Shown: in pieces, positions 16,846 to 64,000 of the stretch
Numbering within the stretch: position 1 is the stretch's first letter
Layout of the letters: the number at the start of each line of letters is the position of its first letter
Assembly: GCF_002104995.1 (NCBI RefSeq)
Contig: NW_024468249.1
Location: 2,046,001-2,110,000 of the forward strand
DNA: 64,000 nt
Origin: Linderina pennispora
Taxonomy: Eukaryota; Kickxellomycota; Kickxellomycetes; Kickxellales; Kickxellaceae
Direction of reading: 5' to 3'
The notes under the pieces: model-generated
Told to the model about the DNA's origin: nothing
Database searches by the model: none
What the model saw: the letters and a program-made list of their open reading frames with translations, nothing else
Program-made: the position numbers and the translations under genes

Positions 16846-18602
16846 TTACATAGCTGTACATTCGAAAATATAGGGGTTTAGAACTGGATATGCCCCACGA
16901 TCCTTGGCCATATTGCGCGTGTGTTGGTCTAAGTGTTCGCCCAGGGCCACTAATGGGCCATATTCCTTCTCTGCAGCCTCATATGCAGCCTGCTCGTCGG
17001 TGACTGCCTGCATTAGCGCATCGCCAACACGCTGTTCGGCCGATGCCTGCCTGCGCAGCGGCGGCAGCTTCTCGTTGTCGCGGTCGTAGCGCTTGGCTTC
17101 CTCAAACGACATCACCGCTTGCCGCAGTCCGCGTCCACCAGCCGACAGCTGGCCTGCCGGGAGCCGCTGCGTGCCCAGCAGCCCCTTGAGCTCGTTGATC
17201 GTCTCGGCTTCCGACCGGAGGACATGGAAGATCCGCGCCATCTTTGCCGACCGCCAGGATCTTCTTGCGGATTGCCGCGCGCCGCTGCTCGTGCTCCGTG
17301 CTCTGCGCCTCCGCCAGCACCTGCTGCAGGTCCGTCGCGCTCTCCTCCAGCTCGTCCTTGGTGCAGATGTCGAGAATCGCCAGCAGCATGTCCGTGACCT
17401 TCTCGCCGACAAACGGCAGCGACCACGTAAACACATCCATGAAGTTGGGCAGCCAGTACGGGTGCGCCGAGCTGTTGAACTGGCGGATGTTCATGACGTT
17501 GTTCTCGTACTTCAGCACCGCCGCCTTGTTGTTGTACACGTCGAGGTAGTTTGGCGCCGAGAACAGCGTGATGACCGCAGGGAACCCCGTGGTCTTGCTC
17601 TTGCGGTACATGCGGTATCCGGCGTCCTGCGCCTCGTGCGCGCGCACCAGCGACAGCAGGTTGTTGCGCTCTAGGAATGCACACACCGCCGCGTAGTTGA
17701 AAAAGTACGAGCAGCCGCGCGCAAAGTTGTGGATAAAGTAGCTCTTGTTCTTCTCGTGCCCAAAGTCCTCGACCGGGTCGGCCCACAGCAGGTCGCACAT
17801 CAGCCCGTGCGTCGGCGGCTCGCGGAACCGGTCCAGCTGCCGCAGGTCGTCCAGCGTGTGCAGCTCGGGACTCAGCCCGCCGTGGATGCACAGGAACTGC
17901 TTGTTGACCACCGCCGCCAGCGGTAGCGCGCAGAACGACCCCAGCGCTGCCTCATACACCCGCTCCGAGTACTTGTGCGTGCACTCCAGCTTGAACGTAA
18001 AGTAGTCCGTCAGGTGCTGGCACTCGTGGTTGCCGCGCAGCATAAAGAACGACGCCGGGTGCCGGATCTTGAGCGAGTACAGGTACAGCAGGCACTCTAT
18101 CGAAAAGTACCCGCGGTCGACGTAGTCCCCCAGGAACAGGTACTGCGTGGTCGCCGGGTCGCCGCCCACCTCAAACAGCTTCATCAGATCGTAGTACTGC
18201 CCATGCACGTCGCCGCAGATCGTCACCGGCGAGCTCAGGGTCAGCAGGGTTGGCTCGCTCTTGAGGATTGCAGTGGCCTCCTCCAGGATGGCCAGTGCGT
18301 CGGACTCGCGCAGCCGGCCTTCGCGGAAGAAGTGGTCCTTCAGGAAGTCGCAGTTGGGCTTGGTCTGGTCGCCGTTCTCAAACACATCCGAGTGTTCTGG
18401 GATGGCTGTTGCTGGCGGAGCCACCTCAGGCATCATGCGGTCGGTTGTTGCCACCTGCTGGCCCCTCGTCTGTCGTCTGCACGGTGAAGCCGACGCGCGG
18501 GATTGGTGACCCGATGACTGGCGGCGCGTCAGCCATGGTGGCATCGCCAGACTCATCGATGCTGTCGGTAATGGACTTGTTGGTAGGGCTGTCAATGTCC
18601 AT
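16846..18602 (-). CDS. cna1: Calcineurin A catalytic subunit, copy 1 (two single-base insertions)
   Basis: This is the Ca2+/calmodulin-dependent Ser/Thr phosphatase (PP2B). Metal-site motifs are present in order: [28 protein letters not shown] and [10 protein letters not shown], then the PP2B-specific [14 protein letters not shown]. Next come the calcineurin-B-binding helix region, the calmodulin-binding segment (RKKILAVGK then [11 protein letters not shown]) and the autoinhibitory segment ([18 protein letters not shown]). The best start is ATG 18602 ([19 protein letters not shown]). The frame breaks at an extra G in GAGGGGCC near 18474 and again at an extra G in GCAAAGATGG near 17247. Copy 2 has the normal base count at both sites, so the expected protein is clear. 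C-terminus here is [14 protein letters not shown] and on to ECTAM. Its core is almost identical to copy 2 at 29.1-30.9 kb, in inverted orientation. Confidence 0.9.
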
Positions 18603-29096: not shown

Positions 29097-30862
29097 ATGG
29101 AAATCGACACAGATAGTAGTAGCTCAAGCAGCAGAAAGGCCGACCAAGACCAGAATTCTGCTGGCTACAGGAGCGATCGATGAAGTCTAGGCGATGCCAC
29201 CATGGCTGACGCGCCGCCAGTCATCGGGTCACCAATCCCGCGCGTCGGCTTCACCGTGCAGACGACAGACGAGGGCCAGCAGGTGGCGAACAACCGACCG
29301 CATGATGCCTGAGGTGGCTCCGCCAGCAACAGCCATCCCAGAACACTCGGATGTGTTTGAGAACGGCGACCAGACCAAGCCCAACTGCGACTTCCTGAAG
29401 GACCACTTCTTCCGCGAAGGCCGGCTGCGCGAGTCCGACGCACTGGCCATCCTGGAGGAGGCCACTGCAATCCTCAAGAGCGAGCCAACCCTGCTGACCC
29501 TGAGCTCGCCGGTGACGATCTGCGGCGACGTGCATGGGCAGTACTACGATCTGATGAAGCTGTTTGAGGTGGGCGGCGACCCGGCGACCACGCAGTACCT
29601 GTTCCTGGGGGACTACGTCGACCGCGGGTACTTTTCGATAGAGTGCCTGCTGTACCTGTACTCGCTCAAGATCCGGCACCCGGCGTCGTTCTTTATGCTG
29701 CGCGGCAACCACGAGTGCCAGCACCTGACGGACTACTTTACGTTCAAGCTGGAGTGCACGCACAAGTACTCGGAGCGGGTGTATGAGGCAGCGCTGGGGT
29801 CGTTCTGCGCGCTGCCGCTGGCGGCGGTGGTCAACAAGCAGTTCCTGTGCATCCACGGCGGGCTGAGTCCCGAGCTGCACACGCTGGACGACCTGCGGCA
29901 GCTGGACCGGTTCCGCGAGCCGCCGACGCACGGGCTGATGTGCGACCTGCTGTGGGCCGACCCGGTCGAGGACTTTGGGCACGAGAAGAACAAGAGCTAC
30001 TTTATCCACAACTTTGCGCGCGGCTGCTCGTACTTTTTCAACTACGCGGCGGTGTGTGCGTTCCTAGGAGCGCAACAACCTGCTGTCGCTGGTGCGCGCG
30101 CACGAGGCGCAGGACGCCGGATACCGCATGTACCGCAAGAGCAAGACCACGGGGTTCCCTGCGGTCATCACGCTGTTCTCGGCGCCAAACTACCTCGACG
30201 TGTACAACAACAAGGCGGCGGTGCTGAAGTACGAGAACAACGTCATGAACATCCGCCAGTTCAACAGCTCGGCGCACCCGTACTGGCTGCCCAACTTCAT
30301 GGATGTGTTTACGTGGTCGCTGCCGTTTGTCGGCGAGAAGGTCACGGACATGCTGCTGGCGATTCTCGACATCTGCACCAAGGACGAGCTGGAGGAGAGC
30401 GCGACGGACCTGCAGCAGGTGCTGGCGGAGGCGCAGAGCACGGAGCACGAGCAGCGGCGCGCGGCAATCCGCAAGAAGATCCTGGCGGTGGGCAAAATGG
30501 CGCGGATCTTCCACGTCCTCCGGTCGGAAGCCGAGACGATCAACGAGCTCAAGGGGCTGCTGGGCACGCAGCGGCTCCCGGCAGGCCAGCTGTCGGCTGG
30601 CGGCCGCGGACTGCGGCAGGCGGTGATGTCGTTTGAGGAAGCCAAGCGCTACGACCGCGACAACGAGAAGCTGCCGCCGCTGCGCAGGCAGGCATCGGCC
30701 GAACAGCGTGTTGGCGATGCGCTAATGCAGGCTGTCACCGACGAGCAGGCTGCATATGAGGCTGCAGAGAAGGAATATGGCCCATTAGTGGCCCTGGGTG
30801 AGAACCTTGATAACCATGTTAGGAAGATGGAGATGGGCATAGACAATGCATACAGCTATTAG
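29097..30862 (+). CDS. cna2: Calcineurin A catalytic subunit, copy 2 (single-base insertions)
   Basis: Same domain order as copy 1: [35 protein letters not shown], the calmodulin-binding [11 protein letters not shown] and autoinhibitory [18 protein letters not shown]. The best start is ATG 29097 ([20 protein letters not shown]), an N-terminus unlike copy 1. From about 29176 to 30799 the DNA is nearly identical to copy 1. Beyond that the C-terminus diverges ([21 protein letters not shown]). Frame breaks are an apparent extra base cluster at about 29175-29191, an extra G in ggcgaacaac near 29287, and an extra G in cctaggagcg near 30066; copy 1 is normal at the last two. The two genes read outward from the segment between them. 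An intact gene with assembly errors or a decaying duplicate are both possible. Confidence 0.85.
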
Positions 30863-53476: not shown

Positions 53477-56400
53477 ATGAAGGCTAGTTTCTCTCTTTCT
53501 CTCCTGGCTGCTCTTGCCTCGCTGGCGACGACATTGGCTGAGCCGATCCCAGTGGGCGGTCTTGCCTACGCAGACAACCAGATGCAGCCCTTTGGCTTGG
53601 TGCGAATGGGCCGCATGTTCTCTGCGCAGGACTACACTGCCGACGCTTACGATGCTGAGTCGTCATCCGATGATGTCGATCAGTCATCTACCGATCTAGA
53701 TTCGTCTGACACACCCGACTACAGTAGTGTTGATGTCGTTGCAGCGAGCTTCGACTCTTCGTCGTTGGCACCGCCGTGCGAGTCGTCGGCTGCCCCTGCG
53801 GCGACTTCTGATACTGCTTCGCCCCCTGCTGCTGACAGCAGTGATAGTGCTGCTTCGGCTGATACTGGAGCGTCGGCGAGCAATGGCTCATACTCTGCCT
53901 CACCGGCAGCGGCTCCTGCTGCTGCTCCGGCTTCGTCGGCTGCTCCAGCGACGGCTGCAGGCCCAGCTTCTCCACTTGCCACCGCTATTCCTTCGTCGGA
54001 GGCTGCCCCGGCTGCTGCCACAGGCTACGCATCAGCTCCCTCAGGTACTGTAGCCACTGTGTTTGTGCCTGCCCCTGCTCCTGCTGCTCCGTCGGCTGAG
54101 GCTACTCCATCTCCGGTTGCTGTTGCCGTTCCAGTCTCGGCTCCAGCCTCTGCTTCCGCTCCAGTATCTTCCTCTGCTTCAGTTCCAGCTTCTGCTCCAT
54201 TTGTTGCTCCGTCGACTGAAGCTGCTCCCGCTCCAGTATCTTCCTCTGCTTCAGTTCCGGCTTCTGCTCCATTTGTTGCTCCGTCGACTGAAGCTGCTCC
54301 CACTCCGGTATATTCTTCTGCTTCAGTTCCGACTTCTGCTCCATCTGTTTCCCCGTCGACAGAAACTGCTCCCACTCCGGTATATTCTTCTGCTTCAGTT
54401 CCGACTTCTGCTCCATCTGTTTCCCCGTCGACTGAAACTGCTCACACTCCGGTATATTCCTCTGCTTCAGTTCCGACCTCTGCTCCATCTGTTTCCCCGT
54501 CGACAGAAACTGCTCCCACTCCGGTATATTCTTCTGCTTCAGTTCCGACTTCTGCTCCATCTGTTTCCCCGTCGACTGAAACTGCTCACACTCCGGTATA
54601 TTCTTCTGCTTCAGTTCCGACCTCTGCTCCATCTGTTTCCCCGTCGACTGAAACTGCTCACACTCCGGTATATTCTTCTGCTTCAGTTCCGACTTCTGCT
54701 CCATCTGTTTCCCCGTCGACAGAAACTGCTCCCACTCCAGTATATTCTTCTGCTTCAGTTCCGACCTCTGCTCCATCTGTTTCCCCGTCGACAGAAACTG
54801 CTCCTCCAGTTGCTACTTCCACTCCAGTATATGCCTCTGCACCAGCACCAGCTTCTGCCCCTGCTGCTGCCCCTCCCCCTGTCTCTGCCCCAGTCCCTGC
54901 TGCCGCTCCTTCCTATGCGGCCTCCTCGGCCGCCGCCCCCGCCTCTGAAGCCGCCCCTGCTGTCTCCCCGGCTCCTGCTGCTGCGCCTGTCCCTGTTATT
55001 GCACCAGTTCCTAATGCTGGTCCTTCGTACGGAGCGGGGCCAAGCAATGCTTCGGGTTACAGTGGGTCCTATGGCAACCCTGACAACAGTTCGGGGTCGT
55101 ATGGATCTGGAGCTGCCCCTGCTCCTGCTTCTAGCTACGGGTCTAGTTCAGGATCTGGCTATTCTGCTCCTGCCCCTAGTTCCTCAGATATTCCTGCCAC
55201 TACCTACATGAGTTCTCCGGCTCCTGCTTCCAGCTACGGGTCTAGTCCAGGATCTGGTTATTCTGCTCCTGCCCCAGCTCCAGCTCCAGCTCCAGCTCCT
55301 GCTCCAGCTCCTGCTCCTGCTCCTGCTCCAGCTCCAGCTCCTGCCCCTTCCCCGGCTCCTGCTCCGGCTCCAGCCCCAGCCCCAGCCCCAGCTCCTGCTC
55401 CTGCTCCTGCTCCTGCCCCGGCTCCGGCTCCGGCTCCTGCTCCGGCTCCTGCTCCGGCTCCTGCTCCTGCCCCAGCTCCAGCCCCAGCACCTGCTCCGGC
55501 TCCCGCCTCTTCGTACTCGTCTTCTGCCCCCGCACCGCCTCCAGCACCAGCCCCGGCACCAGCTCCTGCTCCTGCTCCTGCTCCTGCTCCGGCTCCAGCC
55601 CCTGAACCAGCTCCAGCTCCAGCTCCAGCTCCAGCTCCAGCTCCAGCTCCAGCTCCAGCTCCAGCTCCAGCTCCTGAACCAGCCCCGGCTCCAGCCCGGC
55701 TCCGGCTCCGGCACCAGCCCCTGAACCAGCTCCTGCCCCAGCTCCAGCTCCAGCTCCAGCTCCAGCCCCGGCACCAGCCTCTTCCTACTCGTCTTCTGCC
55801 CCCTCGGCTCCGACTCCTGCCCCTGCACCGCCTCCGGCACCAGCTCCTGCTCCAGCTCCAGCTCCTGCTCCTGCTCCTGCTCCAGCTCCAGCTCCAGCTC
55901 CAGCTCCAGCTCCAGCTCCAGCTCCTGCCCCTGCTCCTGCCCCTGCTCCTGCCCCTTCCCCGGCTCCTGCTCCGGCTCCGGCTCCTGCTCCGGCTCCGGC
56001 TCCTGCTCCAGCCCCAGCTCCAGCCCCAGCTCCAGCTCCAGCCCCAGCCCCAGCTCCAGGCCCAGCCCCAGCTCCGGCTCCGGCTCCGGTTCCTGCCCCG
56101 GTGCCTGCCCCTGTCCCATCATATTCGACTTCTGCAGCTCCTGCTCCCAGCTCGTCTGAAACTCCTTCTCCTAGCTCATCTGAAGCTCCTTCTCCCAGCT
56201 CGTCTGAAGCTCCTGCTCCTAGCCCGTCATACTCAACTTCTGCTGCTCCATCTCCTAGCTCTTCGGAGACTCCTGTTCCATCTCCTAGCTCTTCCGAGAC
56301 CCCTGCTCCACCTCCTAGCTCTTCCGAGACCCCTGCTCCCAGCCCATCATACTCAACTTCTGCTGCTCCATCTCCTAGCTCTTCGGAGACTCCTGTTCCA

Positions 56401-57123
56401 TCTCCTAGCTCTTCCGAGACCCCTGCTCCACCTCCTAGCTCTTCCGAGACCCCTGCTCCCAGCCCACCATACTCGACTTCTGCTGCTCCATCTCCTAGCT
56501 CTTCGGAGACTCCTGTTCCATCTCCTAGCTCTTCGGAGACCCCTGCTCCATCTCCTAGCTCTTCCGAGACTCCTGTCCCATCTCCTAGCTCTTCAGAGAC
56601 CCTTGCTTCATCCTCTGGGTCTTCAGAGGCCTCCTCGAGCGCTGCGTACTCGTCGGCTGCTCCCACATCATCAGCTCCCAGCTCATCAGCAGCTCCCAGC
56701 TCATCAGCAGCTCCCAGCTCATCAGCAACTCCTAGCTCATCAGCAGCTCCCAGCTCATCAGCAACTCCTAGCTCATCAGCAGGTCCTAGCTCATCGTCTG
56801 CTGCCCCGTCATCAACTACCGGCTACTCCTTGGCTGCCCCTACTACCCCTGCTGAGGAGTCCTCGACTGATGCTTCTTCTGCTGCCACCTCGCCCGTTTA
56901 CACTGGCGCGCAGCCCGATGGTGACTACAGCCCCAAGCGTGCTCGTACTCGCCGAGGCGTCAAGCGCGCCCGCAAGGGTGCCAGAGGCCAGGCTCAACGC
57001 CAGAACCGTGGTCGTGCCAACCGCAGGCGTGTCATCTACAACCCGCGCGTCAAGCCTGCTGCCCATGCCGCCAAGCGGGCTGGCCGTGCAGCTGTCGCCT
57101 CCAAGGCCCAGGCCCAGGCCTAA
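53477..57123 (+). CDS. Very large secreted Ala/Pro/Ser repeat protein with basic tail, one frame break
   Basis: MKASFSLSLLAALASLATTL is a clear signal peptide. It is followed by a short unique acidic region with DYSSVDVVAASFDSSS, then Ala/Ser/Pro-rich sequence. About nine copies of a 24-residue unit (APTPVYSSASVPTSAPSVSP plus STET; 72 bases) occupy roughly 54150-54805. Long (Ala-Pro)n tracts cover about 55265-56090. A missing C near 55695 inside the Ala-Pro tract shifts the frame; the correct reading resumes as PVPSYSTSAAPAPSSSETP and includes repeated SPSSSETPVPSPSSSETP units. The end is a basic tail (SPKRARTRRGVKRARKGARG and on to SKAQAQA). The total is about 1215 residues. It is probably an O-mannosylated wall or matrix protein. 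It shares its signal / repeat / basic-tail plan with the gene at 43.5 kb. Confidence 0.75.
54150..54805 (+). repeat. 72-bp tandem minisatellite
   Basis: About nine tandem copies encode a 24-residue Ser/Pro/Thr unit. The first two copies are of an older type (PVSSSASVPASAPFVAPS). The next seven are almost identical (PVYSSASVPTSAPSVSPS) and differ mainly by APT versus AHT at the unit border. The near-identity of the later copies indicates recent unit gain or homogenisation. Confidence 0.85.
55265..56090 (+). repeat. Long (GCTCCA/GCTCCT)n tract encoding Ala-Pro
   Basis: Hundreds of bases of hexanucleotide-type GCTCCN repeats encode Ala-Pro dipeptides with rare interruptions (SSYSSS, EPAP). The tract contains the single-base loss that breaks the host gene frame, the place where either replication slippage or assembly error is most expected. 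Confidence 0.85.
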
Positions 57124-58938
57124 GAGCATTGGGGGGATACGGATACGGATGTGGATGCGGATGCGGTTGTCTCATCGCACCTGACATTTGCGGCTGTTTG
57201 CCATGATTTCCAATTCTTTTTGCCCCTAGTCTGGACACTCCCCTTCTCTTCATATCTTCTCTACCTCAAGTAAACCTCACTGCTATTTTAACTGCGGTAT
57301 GTGTCGAGTGTATATAAGCGTCGTGCCATATGCGGCATTGCTTGCAATATGCCCGTCGAGTTGAGCCAGCTGGCAAGATATCCAAGTAGGCTTGGATATG
57401 CGTGGGCCATATGCAAAGAGTTGGTCCAGTGATGTCGAGAGTGACAGGCGGGAAGACATTCGCCCGCTACTGTCCTCACTGTCACCAGTGTGGGTGTCGC
57501 TGAAACAAACATTCTCACTGCTAAAAATTCCCATCACTGATATCAGCTGACTGGGCATGTGCTTGCTTGCACCCCGCGGATGTTATAAATAGTGCCAGGT
57601 TGGAGGCTCTCTTCTCTCTCCTCACCCCCTCAGCATCCCTCTTCGCACACTACTCGTTTTTCCCTCTCGAAGAACTGCTGCTGCTGCTGCTCGTCCAATG
57701 TCATTGCGCGCAAGGCTTTCTGTGCTAGCCAGCGTCTGCTTCTCTTTGTTGGCTAGCTGACAGCTAAAGTGGTGAGATGGCCGTGTCGTCCCGCTTGCTC
57801 TGTTTTGCGCACTAACCTTGCCCACTGTCTTTGTGGCCTCTCCGATGCGTTGCATTCCGTCTGCGTGTTTCTGCCCAAAAGCATGTTGTAGCAGTGTAGG
57901 GGATAACATCCGTCGTATCCGCCTGCAGTTGTCATGGGCTCCCCGTTGCGGGCCACAAGCTTTTGCCCTTCGACACTGGTAAACCAAGTGCTTTAAGGGG
58001 GGGCTGTTCAGGCTGCCAAGCATCGGCCCTGTGTGTGAATAGTGTCTGCCTTTTGTCGACTGGTGTTTTCGGGATCCCTTCCCTCGCCTTAGGCATCTCT
58101 CGTGCTTGGATTTTTTTCTTTCGTGCCTGTCAAGCTACGGTTCTTGCGCCCTCCCTTCGTCTATTGTCGACTTCAAGCCATGCATCTCGATTGATATCGC
58201 TCGTGCTTCCCGCAACCCAAGCGCCTCGTTTTGTTTCCGCTAGCCATTTTTTGCCTGTGCTTCGCCACGTTGATAGGGGAGCTAGGGATGAGCGTGCCCG
58301 CCGCCTCCAAGCGTTATCTACATTGCTCAAGGATCCAAACCTCCCGCTGCCTGCTTTCTCTGGCTGGCTTCGTCCATGCGTACCCTTTCTCTCTCTTTGC
58401 ATTCCTGTTATTTCTCTCAATGTCGTGCGACCTCGTTGTCTCGCTGCTTTTTTTTACCTTATTTTATTATTCTCGAACCCTTTCTCTTCTTTGCTACACC
58501 ATTCGCCTAATTTTTGCTTCACTGCTTTCGTTACATTTTCGGTCCAGATCGATCTTCTCCCCTCGCCGGCACCGGCCGTTTCGACATGTGGTCATGATCA
58601 GCGAACGGAGACGGCACATCAGCTTTCGGCACATCTTGGCTACCTTCCCCCTCCAGGAAAGACATGATGAGTGTTTGTTGAAATGTGTTTGTGGATGCCT
58701 ACCATTTTTGCTATCCTGTAGCCACCGGGAGTCACTCCCCTTTGCACCGCGTTTCCATGCTATGTTTCTGCATAGGATAGTTGTGTGGAGTGCTTTGTAG
58801 CACCCTGCGTGTGTTCTCTACTATAGTACAAGAGATCGCTTTTTGGGTACAAGCTGCACGATTGTTGCTCTTCGGTTAAATGCTGCGGCGATGTTTAGAA
58901 GGAGTATACAGAAAGACAGCGCACTGCGCGAAGGTTAA
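57124..58938. other. Non-coding stretch with a strongly pyrimidine-rich plus strand
   Basis: From about 57590 to 58600 the plus strand is dominated by C and T, with runs such as ctctcttctctctcctcacc and tcttctttgctacacc. Plus-strand open frames here (57963-58667, 58231-58800) arise from the skew and have no domains. On the minus strand a piece (HAFGQKHADGMQRIGEATKT) ends at a GTTAGT donor-like site near 57817, but no second exon is found. A long leader or non-coding transcript is possible. Confidence 0.35.
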
Positions 58939-59736
58939 GTGGCGACGGTGATGTCAGCTAGGGTGCAAGTTGGACAGGCGATATATTTAGCATTGGCGAT
59001 GTGGTTGTTACATGTACAGAGCATGTGTGGAGTAGTATATAGGATTTTGTATTTTTATGTCTTTGCTCGCGTTTTGGACGGCTCTCGACAGTTGGCCGGC
59101 ACCAGTCAAATTGGACAGGCAACTCGCGCTTCGATGCTTCCTCGCAGCTTTGCGGCTCGACCAAGATTCGCACGGCGGTTCAAGCACACTCGCTACCAGG
59201 ACAAGTCCTGCGGCTCGTCGCTCGCTTGCTCGTTGGAATCACCGCGGTTAACGGTCGTCATTGAGCAGTCAGAATATGATCGCCTTGCTGCTCGGCACGG
59301 TTCGGTTTCGGCACGACGCCACAAGCCTCTCAGCGTCATCATCAAGCCCCAAGGCATTCCAAGGACTTCTTTTTCCGTGTCTGACACTTATTGCTGACAC
59401 ATCATCTTGGAGCTCAAGCTTTCAGCTCTTCTGTATTTTTCTGTGTATGCTTACGTTTTTTTTACAGGCATGTGGGAAGGACGGGTGGTGGGATGGTGGG
59501 CACAACAACTTTCAAACAACTCTTCAATAATATCAACCCTTCTTCCAAATCAAAACCATTCAATTCATCATAGCAGCACTTCCTGTTGGTAACGATTACG
59601 GATAATGGCAATTACTAGAATTACCCCACCCGCGATGCGAGCTCGGCTGCTAGTCAGCATGGGTTGACACGTCGATAAGAGCATCACGGCGAACCGGTCA
59701 TTTGAACGTGTCGGATGGTTGTTGGTGCAATGTCGA
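58939..59736. other. No firm gene; region 3' of the Fanzor gene
   Basis: A 152-codon plus frame (58939-59397) has no recognisable domain. The part from about 59580 to 59736 lies immediately 3' of the minus-strand Fanzor ORF. In this family that is where the guide (omega-type) RNA scaffold and element end are expected. No clear hairpin stands out by eye. Confidence 0.3.
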
Positions 59737-62223
59737 TCATGGACATCTCCTGTCTTGATGGCTTGCTCTGCGTAGGCGCTTCAGCGCTGGCTCGCTGCTG
59801 CTAGCAGCAGAATCGCCTGCTGCTGCACGCCTCTTGTGCAGGTTCTTTGTTGCAGGGGTGGTGCCAGAAGTATTGGCAGCAATGGCTGTAAAGCGATGGA
59901 ACCGTTCAGGAATACTGCCTGAATCACAGAGTGACTGGAAAATGAGCCTGAAGTTTAGAACTGCTGCGAGGTCGCGGTTCAAGAGCCGAGACGAATAGGC
60001 TCGCCTGTATTGTGCCATGGCCCGCTTACATGACTCGCTTGTACAGCGGAGAAGGCCATGGCACTTCACAGTTGGGTTCTTCGATCTCTGGTAGGGCTGC
60101 GGGTTGGGAACATGCCGGAATGTCTGCAGCGACTTTTCGCAGCAGAACGGGCATATCGACAATGTCCGGAATTCGTCGATCAGATAGACCTCAAAGCCAT
60201 GGTGTTTGAACTTGTCGCGCCATCCCTTGCCACGAATCGGCGCATGGTGTCGGGCCATCGGCGCACTCCAATTGCCCATGATCAGCACTGGGTCTGGACC
60301 GAACTTGCTCCGGAGTTTCGCGGCAAGCCTGTGGTCTGCACGGGCCTGGTTCATGAATGAATCAAGGCGCAGCTTGCGGTGAAGCGGGTACACCTTGGGA
60401 CTGGTACTGACACCTGGATGGGCCTTCCAGCGCCTTTGGTGCTGCTTGTTTGACTTAGTGAGTTGCTGCTCTGGTAACCTTCGCGCTGTCATCGTGTTGG
60501 CATAAAACGGTGCTAGGACACACCGCACAGATGCACGGGTAGCAACGTAGGCACGGAATTTTGCTGGGCTAAGGGTCCGGCAGCAGTGCTTGGAAAGCTC
60601 TGCCTCTGCTCTGCGGACAGCATCTTCTGGGACTTGATCCTTTGTATCCCAACGAATCCTGTCATAGTGGCGCAGCTTGAGCTCCTTGTTGCGCTGCTGC
60701 CGTGTGTAGCGGTAGAGCATTTTTTCACCCTCTTTCCCATTGCTGCTATTTTCGTGCATCATGTATAGCAAATCGCCCCGACCTGGATCGATGAATACAC
60801 AGCGGCCTTTCAGATTCTGCAGCTCTGGCTGTGGGATCTGGTGGATATAGCGACAGTCAGCTATAGTACTGCCTCCCACAGCATCACCTCCTGCAACATC
60901 GCCTGTAGCATCGCCTGTAGCATCGCCTCCCACAGCATCGCCTGTAGCATCGCCTCCCACAGAATTGCCTCCCGCAGCATCGCCTCCCGCAGCATCGCCT
61001 CCTGCACCATCAGCATCTACTGCACCATCAGCCTTGGATATCTTGTCTTGTAACAGAATGCATATCGTTACACCATCTGTTGTCGCCATTCCGTGGAATT
61101 TTCTATCACCATGCGCCTTAAATGGCTTTGATGTTAGATCTGCGACCCGGCCCCACACATCCCACACAGGTTGTGTGATCCCTTGGACCGGGTCGTGTGC
61201 ACAGACTGGGGGTGCTGATGCATATGCATTGTTAAGTGCTGCAACAGTGTCTGCTGCTGCTGCCGATGCAGCAGCAAGTGAATCAGCCGCTACTGCTGCA
61301 GTTGCTGCAGTGGCCTCTGTTGCATCCGATGGCATCTTCGCTGCTTCGCGTGCAGCCTTCTTGGCCAATTTTTCGCCCTTTTCTGCTGCTTTCCTTGCCT
61401 CTGTTGCTGCCCTCTTTGCTGCGTTGATCTTGGTAACCTCCTCACGTGTTTTCGAAACAAACACCTGCTTGATTATTTGCTTGTCCAAACGCACATGGCC
61501 TGGGATCCATGATGTCCGCAGAGGCAAGCATTGGGGAGGAGACTTGCTAAGCTGCTCATTCTCGATAAGCTGGCATAGGCGAATGTATGCACGCAGATGC
61601 TTAAGTGGATTTACCTTGGCATCATAGTATCGGCTGTCTTTGGTGAATCTGTACTTGGCATCATAGGCATTGAGGACTGGTGCCAGCTTGTTGTAGATTG
61701 CAAGCATCGGTGGGGTGAGCACACTGAGATCAGGGTGCCTAGAGGCAACTGCCTGGCGGAGCTTCTGTGCAGGTGTATAAATACACATTTGACATGCATT
61801 ATTGAACTCAGCCTTAGACACATTGCCCATTGTACTGCGCAGTGTGTTTTTGCGGCAGCAAATATCAATCAATTTGGCCAGAATCCGCTGTAGGCAAGTG
61901 CCATAGTGCAACACAATGTTGTTCTTGTATGTTGTCATCAGCTCGGTATCCACGTATGTCGCTACCTGATTCATTTCGCGTACGCCATGTAGCTCAATAT
62001 CGCCATTATGCAATAGATAATCATAAATGTGATATCTAACTACATCACTGAAATCGGCGGTTAACAGTTCTGACCTGTCCTTCCGGTTAACGAAATCCTC
62101 GGCAGATATGACAGTCTTTGCCTTCAAGTTGCGATAAATGAATAAATAAATAAAACGAAAAAACCCCTTTTTCACAAATGTTGCTGGGTCAAAGGCATCA
62201 TCGTAAGCTAGCTGATGGAGTAG
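59737..62223 (-). CDS. Fanzor (TnpB-related, eukaryotic RNA-guided nuclease family)
   Basis: This ORF has about 827 codons open after an upstream stop; the 812-residue reading from the GTG at 62175 is numbered here. No ATG is well placed, so a spliced first exon is possible. RuvC-I is CVFIDPGRGDLLYM with Asp463. The usual TnpB RuvC-II Glu site reads LIMGNWSAP, without Glu. As in Fanzors generally, an alternative Glu sits before the zinc finger in YLIDEFRTLSICPFCCEK (Glu668). RuvC-III is LLNRDLAAVLNFRLI with Asp735. The zinc finger uses CPFC (675, 678) with Cys711 and Cys716. Residues 250-315 form an Ala/Lys-rich helix and 383-436 a Gly/Asp/Ala repeat. The C-terminus is basic (KRLRRASHQDRR), a possible nuclear signal. 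Fanzors use a guide RNA to cut DNA; activity here is inferred from intact motifs. Confidence 0.85.
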   Translation of the reverse strand, partial: LLHQLAYDDAFDPATFVKKGFFRFIYLFIYRNLKAKTVISAEDFVNRKDRSELLTADFSDVVRYHIYDYLLHNGDIELHGVREMNQVATYVDTELMTTYKNNIVLHYGTCLQRILAKLIDICCRKNTLRSTMGNVSKAEFNNACQMCIYTPAQKLRQAVASRHPDLSVLTPPMLAIYNKLAPVLNAYDAKYRFTKDSRYYDAKVNPLKHLRAYIRLCQLIENEQLSKSPPQCLPLRTSWIPGHVRLDKQIIKQVFVSKTREEVTKINAAKRAATEARKAAEKGEKLAKKAAREAAKMPSDATEATAATAAVAADSLAAASAAAADTVAALNNAYASAPPVCAHDPVQGITQPVWDVWGRVADLTSKPFKAHGDRKFHGMATTDGVTICILLQDKISKADGAVDADGAGGDAAGGDAAGGNSVGGDATGDAVGGDATGDATGDVAGGDAVGGSTIADCRYIHQIPQPELQNLKGRCVFIDPGRGDLLYMMHENSSNGKEGEKMLYRYTRQQRNKELKLRHYDRIRWDTKDQVPEDAVRRAEAELSKHCCRTLSPAKFRAYVATRASVRCVLAPFYANTMTARRLPEQQLTKSNKQHQRRWKAHPGVSTSPKVYPLHRKLRLDSFMNQARADHRLAAKLRSKFGPDPVLIMGNWSAPMARHHAPIRGKGWRDKFKHHGFEVYLIDEFRTLSICPFCCEKSLQTFRHVPNPQPYQRSKNPTVKCHGLLRCTSESCKRAMAQYRRAYSSRLLNRDLAAVLNFRLIFQSLCDSGSIPERFHRFTAIAANTSGTTPATKNLHKRRAAAGDSAASSSEPALKRLRRASHQDRRCP
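60868..61029 (-). repeat. Minisatellite inside the Fanzor gene
   Basis: Tandem units of about 15 bases (ggcgatgctgtggga type on the coding strand) encode GGDAAGGDAAGG / GGDATGDAVGG. The array adds about 54 residues shortly before the RuvC-I motif, in frame. Confidence 0.8.
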
Positions 62224-63219
62224 TATCCATCATGCAAGCATGTATGTATGCTCTTTGATGATATTGACACTATGTACAAATTGCTCTAGGTGGGGCAACA
62301 TAGAATCACGGAAGCCAATACCACCAAGCGATGTCTTTATGACAGTAGTGCTGCGGGTAATATTCATTTGAGAAATTCAATAGGCAAAGTAAGAAGAGAA
62401 ATGATGCTGTTCAGTTTTGCTTTATTGCGTATGCATAGCATTAAGAACTTTTTATTAAAAATTATCTGGCTTGCATGGTTCTTGAGGCCTTTAGCACTCA
62501 TACAGTCTCTTGAATCAGTCTATACAGACTGGATCCATTGTGACCCAAATACTACCGCTTACGCATGTTCATAAGACAAATTAATTTATAAAATAAACCC
62601 ACAAATATTGCATGACCGCTAGAAGAGCTATATGGCCCTATTCAATAGGTGCTCATAAATAACTATCCTAAGAGTGTTGCGCAGCCGGTGATGACCACCA
62701 TGATGATGCTATGGAAATTATCAGGCCGACCGACAATGAGAGCAGCTCTTGCGCTGAACCAATGGAGATATCCAGTGGAGACCTGTGACCACTACAATAA
62801 CAACTCGTCACCCTGGTTTCACCGATGAGGTCAGATGCCGCACAAGATCAAAAGGAGTTTACAGAGCAAGTCACTCGAACCTGTGTTGAAGCTTAAGAGT
62901 TTTATTTTCTTTTTAACCAATTAAATAATTTCTAGCGGACGGTCGGACACTTTTTGGACTATAAAATCTTATATAAAGGTAACTAGCAGTCTCATGCTTG
63001 CGATGCAAGCGCACCTCTATGTGTGCCAAACGCTGTTTGTCACACATTTCGGTGGAGACTGCTAGCGCCTGCAGCGGGCTGAATACATAAATACAAATTT
63101 GTTTTTGAATATAATAGGTTTTAATATAAAATATTTAATAATTTTAATACTAATAATAGTATATGGTAGAAATTAGTATTAGCTAATAAAAATATATTTA
63201 ATATAAAGATAAAATTAAA
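62224..63219. other. A/T-rich spacer between the Fanzor gene and the helicase
   Basis: No gene is recognised; a 94-codon plus frame at 62290-62574 is featureless. Composition is clearly more A/T-rich than the host genes to the left, strongest at 63080-63220 (runs of aatatttaataatttt). It contains the structured inverted-repeat element at 62983-63065. Confidence 0.5.
62983..63065. repeat. Nested inverted repeats, three-way-junction fold
   Basis: The outer arms CTAGCAGTCTC (62983-62993) and GAGACTGCTAG (63055-63065) pair perfectly over 11 bp. Inside are two more hairpins. One is GCTTGC/GCAAGC (62996-63001 with 63005-63010, loop GAT). The other is ATGTGTG/CACACAT (63019-63025 with 63041-63047), extended by CAAAC/GTTTG (63027-63031 with 63035-63039). 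Together they make a compact 83-base cloverleaf-like three-way junction. It lies 155 bases beyond the helicase stop codon. Read on the minus strand it ends CTAG followed by T, as Helitron 3' ends do, though in Helitrons the hairpin normally sits about ten bases inside the end. It may be a transposon end or a structured RNA. Confidence 0.6.
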
Positions 63220-64000
63220 CTAAGAAAATATCTCCTTATAGACTATGTTTTTAGTCTTAGGTTCACTATCAGGATAATGTGTAGCTGACCCTAACATTAT
63301 CTTGAGATTACTAAATGATTGTATGCGAGAAAGTGCCACATAGAGTTGGCCATGAGTAAAGATGGGTGATGGAAGATAAAGCCCAACTCGTTCCATTGTT
63401 TGACCTTGGGCCTTATTTATAGTCATTGAGAAGGCAAGGCGGATTGGGAACTGGCATCGGCGTAGAACAAATGGTAATTGCTGGTGCTTAGTTGTTAATA
63501 TCATTTGGGGTATAAATACCCTGGTACCATAAGCAGCACCAGTTATAATTTCAGCATCAATCACATGGGGCTGTAATCTATGGCATATAAGTCGTGTGCC
63601 ATTACATAGACCATGGGCAGAATCCAGGTTACGTAGGAGTATGATTGGTGCCCCTACTTTGAGGCGGAGGTGATGAGGTGGTAGGGTTCCACCAACATCT
63701 AGTGAATTAAGAAATTCAACTGGGAACAGCTGCTGGGTCTCTGTAGTTGCACCATCAGTATCTGCAATTGAGTCAGCGCTATAGTAGTTAATGATAGTGC
63801 CTGGTAGATGGTCAATGATCTTGTTATTTAGATCATTCACTGAGGCATTAGTTGGTGATAGGATGCTACGATTGACCATATAGTTGGCTTGATTATATTG
63901 ATATGCTAAATTAGTATAAATTGCATTGATCAATAGCTCAACATTATCTGAGGGTATTACAGTACCCACAGGTAATTGAATTTGGTCATATTCATCGCTG
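63220..64000 (-). CDS. Pif1/Helitron-type helicase, C-terminal part (runs off the window)
   Basis: The frame is open to the window edge and continues past it, so the N-terminus is missing; the visible part is about 259 residues. It shows the C-terminal half of SF1B Pif1-like helicases as found in Helitron Rep-Hel proteins: QLPVGTVIPSDNVELLINAI, LRLKVGAPIILLRNLD, NGTRLICHRL, then motif V region AFSMTINKAQGQTMERVG and motif VI HGQLYVALSRIQSFSNL. The nuclease and N-terminal helicase motifs would lie beyond 64000, so free-standing Pif1 versus Helitron origin cannot be proved here. Low GC and an A/T-rich flank unlike the neighbouring host genes favour a mobile element. It has the same orientation as the Fanzor gene. 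Confidence 0.85.
   Translation of the reverse strand, partial: SDEYDQIQLPVGTVIPSDNVELLINAIYTNLAYQYNQANYMVNRSILSPTNASVNDLNNKIIDHLPGTIINYYSADSIADTDGATTETQQLFPVEFLNSLDVGGTLPPHHLRLKVGAPIILLRNLDSAHGLCNGTRLICHRLQPHVIDAEIITGAAYGTRVFIPQMILTTKHQQLPFVLRRCQFPIRLAFSMTINKAQGQTMERVGLYLPSPIFTHGQLYVALSRIQSFSNLKIMLGSATHYPDSEPKTKNIVYKEIFS

Follow-up and report, generated by a model that had tools for sequence, protein, structure and literature searches.

Which vehicle carries a Fanzor nuclease gene through a fungal genome, and does the nuclease take part in the movement? This question is raised by a Fanzor gene on the minus strand of a 64,000-nucleotide stretch of Linderina pennispora DNA (contig NW_024468249.1), which was analysed as a whole and is referred to below as the window. 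We give a probability of roughly 0.7 to the reading that a Fanzor1 gene lies in a non-autonomous Helitron of the Helitron1 type, which RepHel protein moves in trans while the Fanzor uses RNA from the 3' end of the element together with a guide from the right flank. The new part is the vehicle: a Helitron of canonical type, present in many copies, with a fixed right flank and accompanied in its genome by a head-to-tail partner.

The Fanzor1 gene and its protein

The gene was read from the minus strand, since the plus strand of 59737-62223 contains 24 stops. The following features were assigned to it.

59737..62229, minus strand: Fanzor1 open frame of 830 codons, N-terminus lost to a stop
60865..61445, minus strand: Ala-rich helix and Gly/Asp-rich repeat ahead of RuvC-I (limits approximate, by inspection)
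60787..60789, minus strand: RuvC-I catalytic Asp463, DPG motif (alignment to solved Fanzors and frame position)
60172..60174, minus strand: relocated RuvC-II Glu668, IDEFRT (alignment; definition in PMC10711439)
59971..59973, minus strand: RuvC-III catalytic Asp735, NRD motif in NRDLAAVLN (alignment and frame position)

The Fanzor motifs named in a preliminary description of the locus were all recovered at the residue numbers given there, which refer to an 812-residue frame beginning at 62175. In this frame FIDPG, with the DPG of RuvC-I, occupies residues 461-465. The older RuvC-II position is represented by MGNWS at 633 and has no Glu, so the canonical RuvC-II Glu of IS605-type TnpB, about 50 residues ahead of the zinc finger, is absent; Glu668 stands six residues ahead of the first CxxC of the zinc finger (E668-x6-C675PFC678). 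The C4 finger is formed by C675, C678, C711 and C716, the second Cys pair being CxxxxC, as in the Parasitella parasitica Fanzor1 (PpFz1), and not CxxC; it is followed by NRD735, with the RD signature present. An alternative position of the RuvC-II Glu has been defined as part of the Fanzor signature in PMC10711439, and the claim that the relocated Glu is a family hallmark fits this definition. Since the relocation is a hallmark of Fanzors in general, it is by itself not new.

Asp463, Glu668 and Asp735 align with the catalytic motifs of solved Fanzors. The similarity to a solved Fanzor1 is more than chance (E 1.1e-73), and the predicted model of the whole protein matches the folds of solved Fanzors, with the Gly/Asp-rich repeat as a low-confidence loop. 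By sequence and by fold the protein groups with Fz1 and not with Fz2 or TnpB. The Fanzor identity proposed earlier is borne out by these comparisons, and the window gene is a real Fanzor1. With the whole protein as query, none of the 7996 candidates scored reached E <= 0.001, probably owing to low-complexity words crowding the candidate list. When the search was limited to residues 440-770, the named relatives were mostly from Coemansia and the others from Mucoromycota, in agreement with the fungal host that had been proposed. A transporter encoded in the window shares 98% identity with a Linderina pennispora transporter, which points to the same species. A Pfam scan of the Fanzor protein returned no match, and PF26935, which is listed for Fanzor relatives, was absent from the profile scan of sequence P0001.

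The Helitron and its ends

The preliminary description had recommended that the genome be searched for other copies to define the ends of the element. This proved productive: in the 26.2-Mb assembly, 29 other loci gave common Helitron ends, which delimit the following features of the window copy.

59615..62982, minus strand: non-autonomous Helitron of 3368 bp with Fanzor1 as its only gene (similarity limits across copies)
59628..59642, minus strand: hairpin of the 3' terminus, preserved in most copies and broken in the window copy
59613..59618, minus strand: CTAG terminus and the near-invariant TA after it (TA follows 109 of 111 exact CTAG ends)

The 3' similarity limit is common to 28 of the 29 other loci and the 5' limit to 21, with one more off by a single base. 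The 5' end is TCTTTACCTWTATATAAG and begins with TC, as expected of Helitron1; its 27-base pattern TCTTTACCTWTATATAAGATTTTATAG occurs at 65 exact places in the genome and at 127 with two mismatches or fewer. The 3' end CATCGCGAGCAGAGNNNTTCTAG occurs at 111 exact places and has the hairpin and CTRR of Helitron1, the hairpin standing 13 bases ahead of the end of CTAG in the predicted fold. Searches with the 3'-terminal 120-150 bases yielded 242-245 unscored first-look candidates in the genome, 40 being scored each time, and shorter derivatives of the Fanzor Helitron probably exist in number. Extra TCTTTA units were seen at the 5' end of several copies, among them L007, L011 and L003, as if slipped during copying.

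Fanzor1 genes have also been reported in Mariner, MuDr, Sola and IS4-like elements (PMC3627910), which speaks for a vehicle that is IS607-like or bounded by terminal inverted repeats and resembles a Helitron by chance. Against such a vehicle, no long terminal inverted repeat was found: the longest inverted match between the 5' and 3' ends was 6-8 bases in four copies, with a shuffle mean of 5.5-5.7 bases and 8 bases reached in 4-5% of shuffles. The TC start, the hairpin with its CTAG end and the occurrence of RepHel with the same termini also contradict it, and this explanation is considered highly improbable. The asymmetric inverted ends of Helitron2 were not found in the same four copies, nor was the stable 5' hairpin of Helitron2.

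Decay of the window copy and selection on the family

Alignment of the 30 element copies (the window copy and 29 others) placed two further features on the Fanzor frame.

62230..62232, minus strand: in-frame stop inside the Fanzor frame of the window copy
62365..62367, minus strand: start ATG of the full frame (MNIT...), as in intact copies

The coding region starts neither at 62175 nor at 62223: the aligned copies place the start ATG at 62365-62367. The ORF of about 2.5 kb that had been described as uninterrupted is indeed open over 59737-62229 between two stops, but one of these, at 62230-62232, lies inside the full frame. A sense codon occupies this position in all 26 other copies that have the stretch, which is missing from the other three rows. 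The longest ATG frame left in the window copy has 745 amino acids and begins at an inner Met. A TGA that recurs in other copies is no oddity but the normal end of the frame in one subfamily, and it comes about 20 codons ahead of where the frame of the window copy closes. Both transposon ends of the window copy are also damaged. Its 5' end has lost the first three bases, including the TC start, and one hairpin arm is changed, the six-pair hairpin of other copies being no longer predicted. The window copy is thus a degraded member of the Fanzor-Helitron family and not the recently active copy that had been suggested.

At least 83 Fanzor matches were listed in the genome. A complete frame of 857-889 amino acids is present in 9 of the 49 loci examined and absent in the other 40, at least one of which (L026) is interrupted by a contig end. 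Among the 10 long-frame copies (45 pairs), mean nonsynonymous divergence (dN) was 0.029 and synonymous divergence (dS) 0.095, giving a dN/dS of 0.30; over 300 codons of the nuclease part the ratio was 0.28. The Fanzor family is under purifying selection, which indicates that the protein was selected during the spread of the family and that the window copy has decayed since. This bears on the alternative that the Fanzor is captured cargo without a role in the spread, with the fixed TA marking only where RepHel joins the 3' end. Helitrons do capture genes (PMC2267711), and the large share of loci without a full frame agrees with such a passenger. TA also follows 3' ends that are seemingly more numerous than the Fanzor genes (the 111 exact ends and the unscored candidates, against the 49 loci examined and the 83 or more matches). 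However, a useless passenger should drift towards a dN/dS of 1, and we regard captured cargo as an unlikely account.

The RepHel partner and head-to-tail joints

RepHel is absent from the Fanzor element itself and occurs elsewhere in the same genome. PF14214 (Helitron_like_N) gave 13 matches above its cut-off, at about seven loci, and five of these have the 27-base 5' end on the same strand, 1.7-1.8 kb upstream; it was therefore taken as the RepHel 5' end. One example of a RepHel Helitron has its 5' end at C157:1120589-1120615 and its 3' end at C157:1115020. The 3' hairpin of RepHel elements has the same geometry as that of the Fanzor element, and one pair is compensated (GCTCGC/GCGAGC and GCTTGC/GCAAGC). 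A second RepHel lineage is possibly represented at C68:198243-198650, where a 1989-codon open frame contains a more distant Helitron_like_N match. In the window, a RepHel element adjoins the Fanzor Helitron.

62983..64000, minus strand: 3' part of a RepHel-type Helitron with PIF1 helicase domain, directly abutting the Fanzor Helitron
62996..63010, minus strand: hairpin of this RepHel element
62983..62986, minus strand: CTAG of this RepHel element

Upstream of the window element, locus L031 (C1:2108001-2118000) holds RepHel and then a DDE_Tnp_4 transposase gene, together with part of a Ty3-like retroelement with a dUTPase domain, and RepHel there looks interrupted.

Eight RepHel 3' ends were found in the genome, and each runs directly (0 bp) into a 5' end like that of the Fanzor Helitrons, five exactly and three with about three or four bases lost. 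At six of the eight joints the Fanzor-element match continues for about 1.5 kb or to the element's end; it extends 325 bp at L062 and 52 bp at L057. The remainder of L062 seems to be L033, which begins at element base 416, some kilobases away. Head-to-tail Helitrons are known (PMC2267711, PMC5876387, PMC5148889), and the available parts of these three papers contain no case in which every partner copy stands head-to-tail.

The complete adjacency could be expected if RepHel and Fanzor formed one composite autonomous Helitron from which the Fanzor-only elements derive, and one pair of Fanzor halves (the window and C171) is indeed 99.2% alike. The two halves, however, differ in their similarity. 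Similarity among four RepHel sides is 97.9-99.1% over 1630 bp, and further ones reach 98.3-98.8% in shorter alignments, whereas the Fanzor sides of six loci are only 93.9-96.6% alike outside that pair; the RepHel side of L063 departs from this contrast, being only 94.4% alike over 535 bp. Moreover, the six joined Fanzor copies that could be placed in a tree do not form a single clade: 5 tree changes were counted against a shuffled mean of 5.6, which shows no clustering, and the clade appeared in 0% of 200 bootstrap trees and had a p value of 0.0002 in the approximately unbiased (AU) test. The AU value refers to a second tree without the truncated or long-branched copies L013, L014, L048, L029 and L041; with them p was 0.0099. 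L057 and L062 were left out of both trees because they hold too little Fanzor sequence. Either joining has thus taken place on several occasions or the Fanzor halves have been mixed by conversion, and a composite element is doubtful.

A preference of RepHel Helitrons for inserting at the Fanzor-Helitron 5' end (A^TCTTTACC), in separate events, has about an even chance of being correct. It would account for adjacency at all eight ends together with several origins, and the bases lost at three of the joints resemble the loss of target bases at other insertions. Joints of CTAG and TC from successive insertions are known in maize (PMC2267711), and placement of one Helitron by the 5' end of another has been seen in Fusarium and suggested in Metarhizium (PMC5148889). 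On the other hand, such a joint is also the circle junction expected from rolling-circle transposition (PMC5876387), and the two elements may have been joined in trans before insertion. In addition, the 5' end is common to RepHel and Fanzor elements, so that the short matches at L057 and L062 are less surely Fanzor.

Insertion sites

Among 37 distinct right flanks, the first base is T in 36 and the second is A in all 37, with no strong preference beyond. The left flank is A at 13 of 20 clean ends, and at 10 of 10 other ends after TCTTTA-like repeats were trimmed by a pattern of our own. Joined flank pairs were tested in 25 cases (15 and 10), and an unoccupied site, either empty or paralogous, was recovered for six of them. 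In the two junction searches, 40 of 183 and 40 of 58 candidates were scored, so other junctions may still have empty sites. At the sites of L005, L048 and L014 the right joint shows TA in the host, and the occupied copy lacks 8, 7 and 11 bases, respectively, between its two joints. About 102 bases are missing at L037, where the alignment can be placed in two ways. L047 and L011 have near-exact joints, and the host has TC and AA where the occupied copy has TA; the L011 site (L011/L065) is a right flank matched together with only about nine left-flank bases. No target duplication was found at the six sites, which are few and may include chance differences between paralogues.

The idea that the TA after CTAG is host sequence does not agree with L047 and L011, with L037 placeable either way. 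These sites suggest that the functional 3' end includes TA and that a few bases of the target are often lost on insertion. A supposed empty site of L013 (C2:453813) was rejected because it falls within the L013 locus itself and covers the 5' end of that same element. The flanks of L012, L030 and L007 recur at other places, 1.2-1.9 kb apart (C212:691898-693692, C13:316355-318281 and C1:1089790-1091089), and shorter elements may occupy the corresponding position in these paralogous sites.

Proposed mechanism and its evidence

Two further features are required by the proposed role of the nuclease.

59615..59719, minus strand: 3' non-coding end, candidate omegaRNA scaffold (from diversity)
59593..59612, minus strand: right flank as would-be guide (from the TnpB/Fanzor layout, PMC10711439)

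In the reading that we favour, RepHel protein would nick the shared 5' end and copy the element by rolling circle. The Fanzor would bind RNA from the 3' end of the element, with a scaffold running through CTAG and the fixed TA, by analogy with IS607, whose guide-RNA scaffold includes a fixed right-flank base (PMC10711439). The guide would accordingly be the next 15-20 bases of the right flank, beginning with the third flanking base, and the guide RNA would end ...CUAGUA followed by right flank. The Fanzor could then cut the same site where it is still empty, and repair would copy the element in. The nearest tested Fanzor requires ATN ahead of its target (PMC11423790). The element itself would be spared by having GTA, not ATN, ahead of the guide, since insertion would destroy the motif (ATA to GTA). 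By eye, the bases ahead of the would-be guide are ATA at three of the six unoccupied sites, ATC at one and AAA at two, and GTA at the occupied site. This fits removal of the motif, although the liking of Helitrons for A^T explains much of it. Diversity is about 0.04 (mean of eight bins) in the inner 80 bases of the 3' end; for third codon positions it is 0.061, and for the non-coding part at the 5' side 0.065.

Several observations weigh against this reading. The window copy cannot make the full Fanzor protein owing to its in-frame stop, the RepHel copy adjoining it appears broken by other transposons, and none of the RepHel copies was demonstrated to be intact. The RNA step is inferred. A non-coding transcript at 59500-59800 had been proposed, and this interval does overlap 59613-59737, where the guide RNA would lie. 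However, conservation over the whole 3' non-coding stretch (diversity 0.063) does not exceed that of third codon positions, the single-strand fold of the 3' end is no better than that of shuffled sequences (z -0.34), and two-sided change was seen in only 1 of 57 predicted pairs. This consensus fold was made from 39 of 41 3' ends, L019 and L025 being left out, and the copies are too alike for covariation. An Rfam scan gave one chance match (E 0.94). ATN is matched at four of the six sites and fails at L011 and L037, and the match is confounded with the A^T preference of Helitrons. At L005 the would-be guide departs from the empty copy in its first two bases.

Five locus pairs with shared flanks likewise gave no consistent homing signal. 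The elements are more alike than the flanks in L032/L034 (96.3% vs 92-93%) and in L002/L019 on the right side (99.9% vs 97.1%, the left flank being 100%), about equal to them in L003/L020 (97.9 and 97.6), and no more alike than them in L023/L041 and L029/L040. C57 (L002 and L067) and C175 (L019 and L066) carry the same insertion, with one mismatch in 3.7 kb, none in the 971-bp left flank and 25 from 222 bp rightward, a mosaic that possibly reflects conversion or recombination.

A stronger form of the proposal, an RNA-guided homing Helitron in which a rolling-circle transposon and a nuclease cooperate in a eukaryote, with RepHel steered to the 5' ends of Fanzor Helitrons, is put forward only tentatively and appears unlikely at present.

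Other features of the window

Outside the element, an inverted duplication of 1.63 kb, 99.1% identical, lies at 16940-18563 and 29172-30798. The greater part of a gene for a serine/threonine phosphatase, judged calcineurin-like by eye, lies within it, and in one of the phosphatase copies the open frame appears to shift frame part-way. At 53477-57184 there is a long frame for an Ala/Pro-rich repeat protein, which becomes Leu/Arg-rich part-way, as after a frame change within the repeats.

Comparison with known systems

In this one genome, a selected Fanzor family and its Helitron ends occur together with a matching RepHel, a fixed right flank and empty sites. The role of a Fanzor for its transposon is therefore easier to test in this system, with exact predictions for the scaffold end, the guide start and the motif. 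The pairing may be a eukaryotic counterpart of the bacterial one of HUH transposase and TnpB. A similar logic has been proposed for TnpB of IS200/IS605 and IS607, in which HUH or recombinase mobility is combined with RNA-guided cutting of empty sites (PMC10711439). Typical TnpBs have the Glu at its canonical position, whereas here it is relocated, and a eukaryotic RepHel takes the place of TnpA.

Among solved Fanzors, PpFz1 (PDB 9cf0-9cf3; PMC11423790) is the closest relative by sequence and fold, and it has the same catalytic motifs. Judged by eye, nothing is inserted in the window protein where PpFz1 has its RuvC insertion (FRI domain), and the Ala-rich and Gly/Asp-rich insert stands ahead of RuvC-I instead. 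SPu-1 of Spizellomyces punctatus (SpuFz1; PMC3627910, PMC10432273) is likewise a fungal Fanzor1 with several intact copies, but it is bounded by 33-bp inverted ends and TA duplications, in contrast to the Helitron ends of the window family. CRe-1, CRe-2 and CRe-3 of Chlamydomonas (PMC3627910) are likewise non-autonomous, multi-copy Fanzor1 Helitrons that share ends with RepHel. These are Helitron2 elements of a green alga with asymmetric inverted ends and frequent target duplications, whereas the window family has Helitron1-type ends, no such inverted ends, and loss of target bases instead of duplication. The head-to-tail Helitrons of maize, bat, Fusarium and Metarhizium also have one Helitron immediately adjoining the end of another, with CTAG followed by TC in maize (PMC2267711, PMC5148889). 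The available text of these sources describes single or few cases, whereas in this genome the arrangement extends to all eight RepHel 3' ends found.

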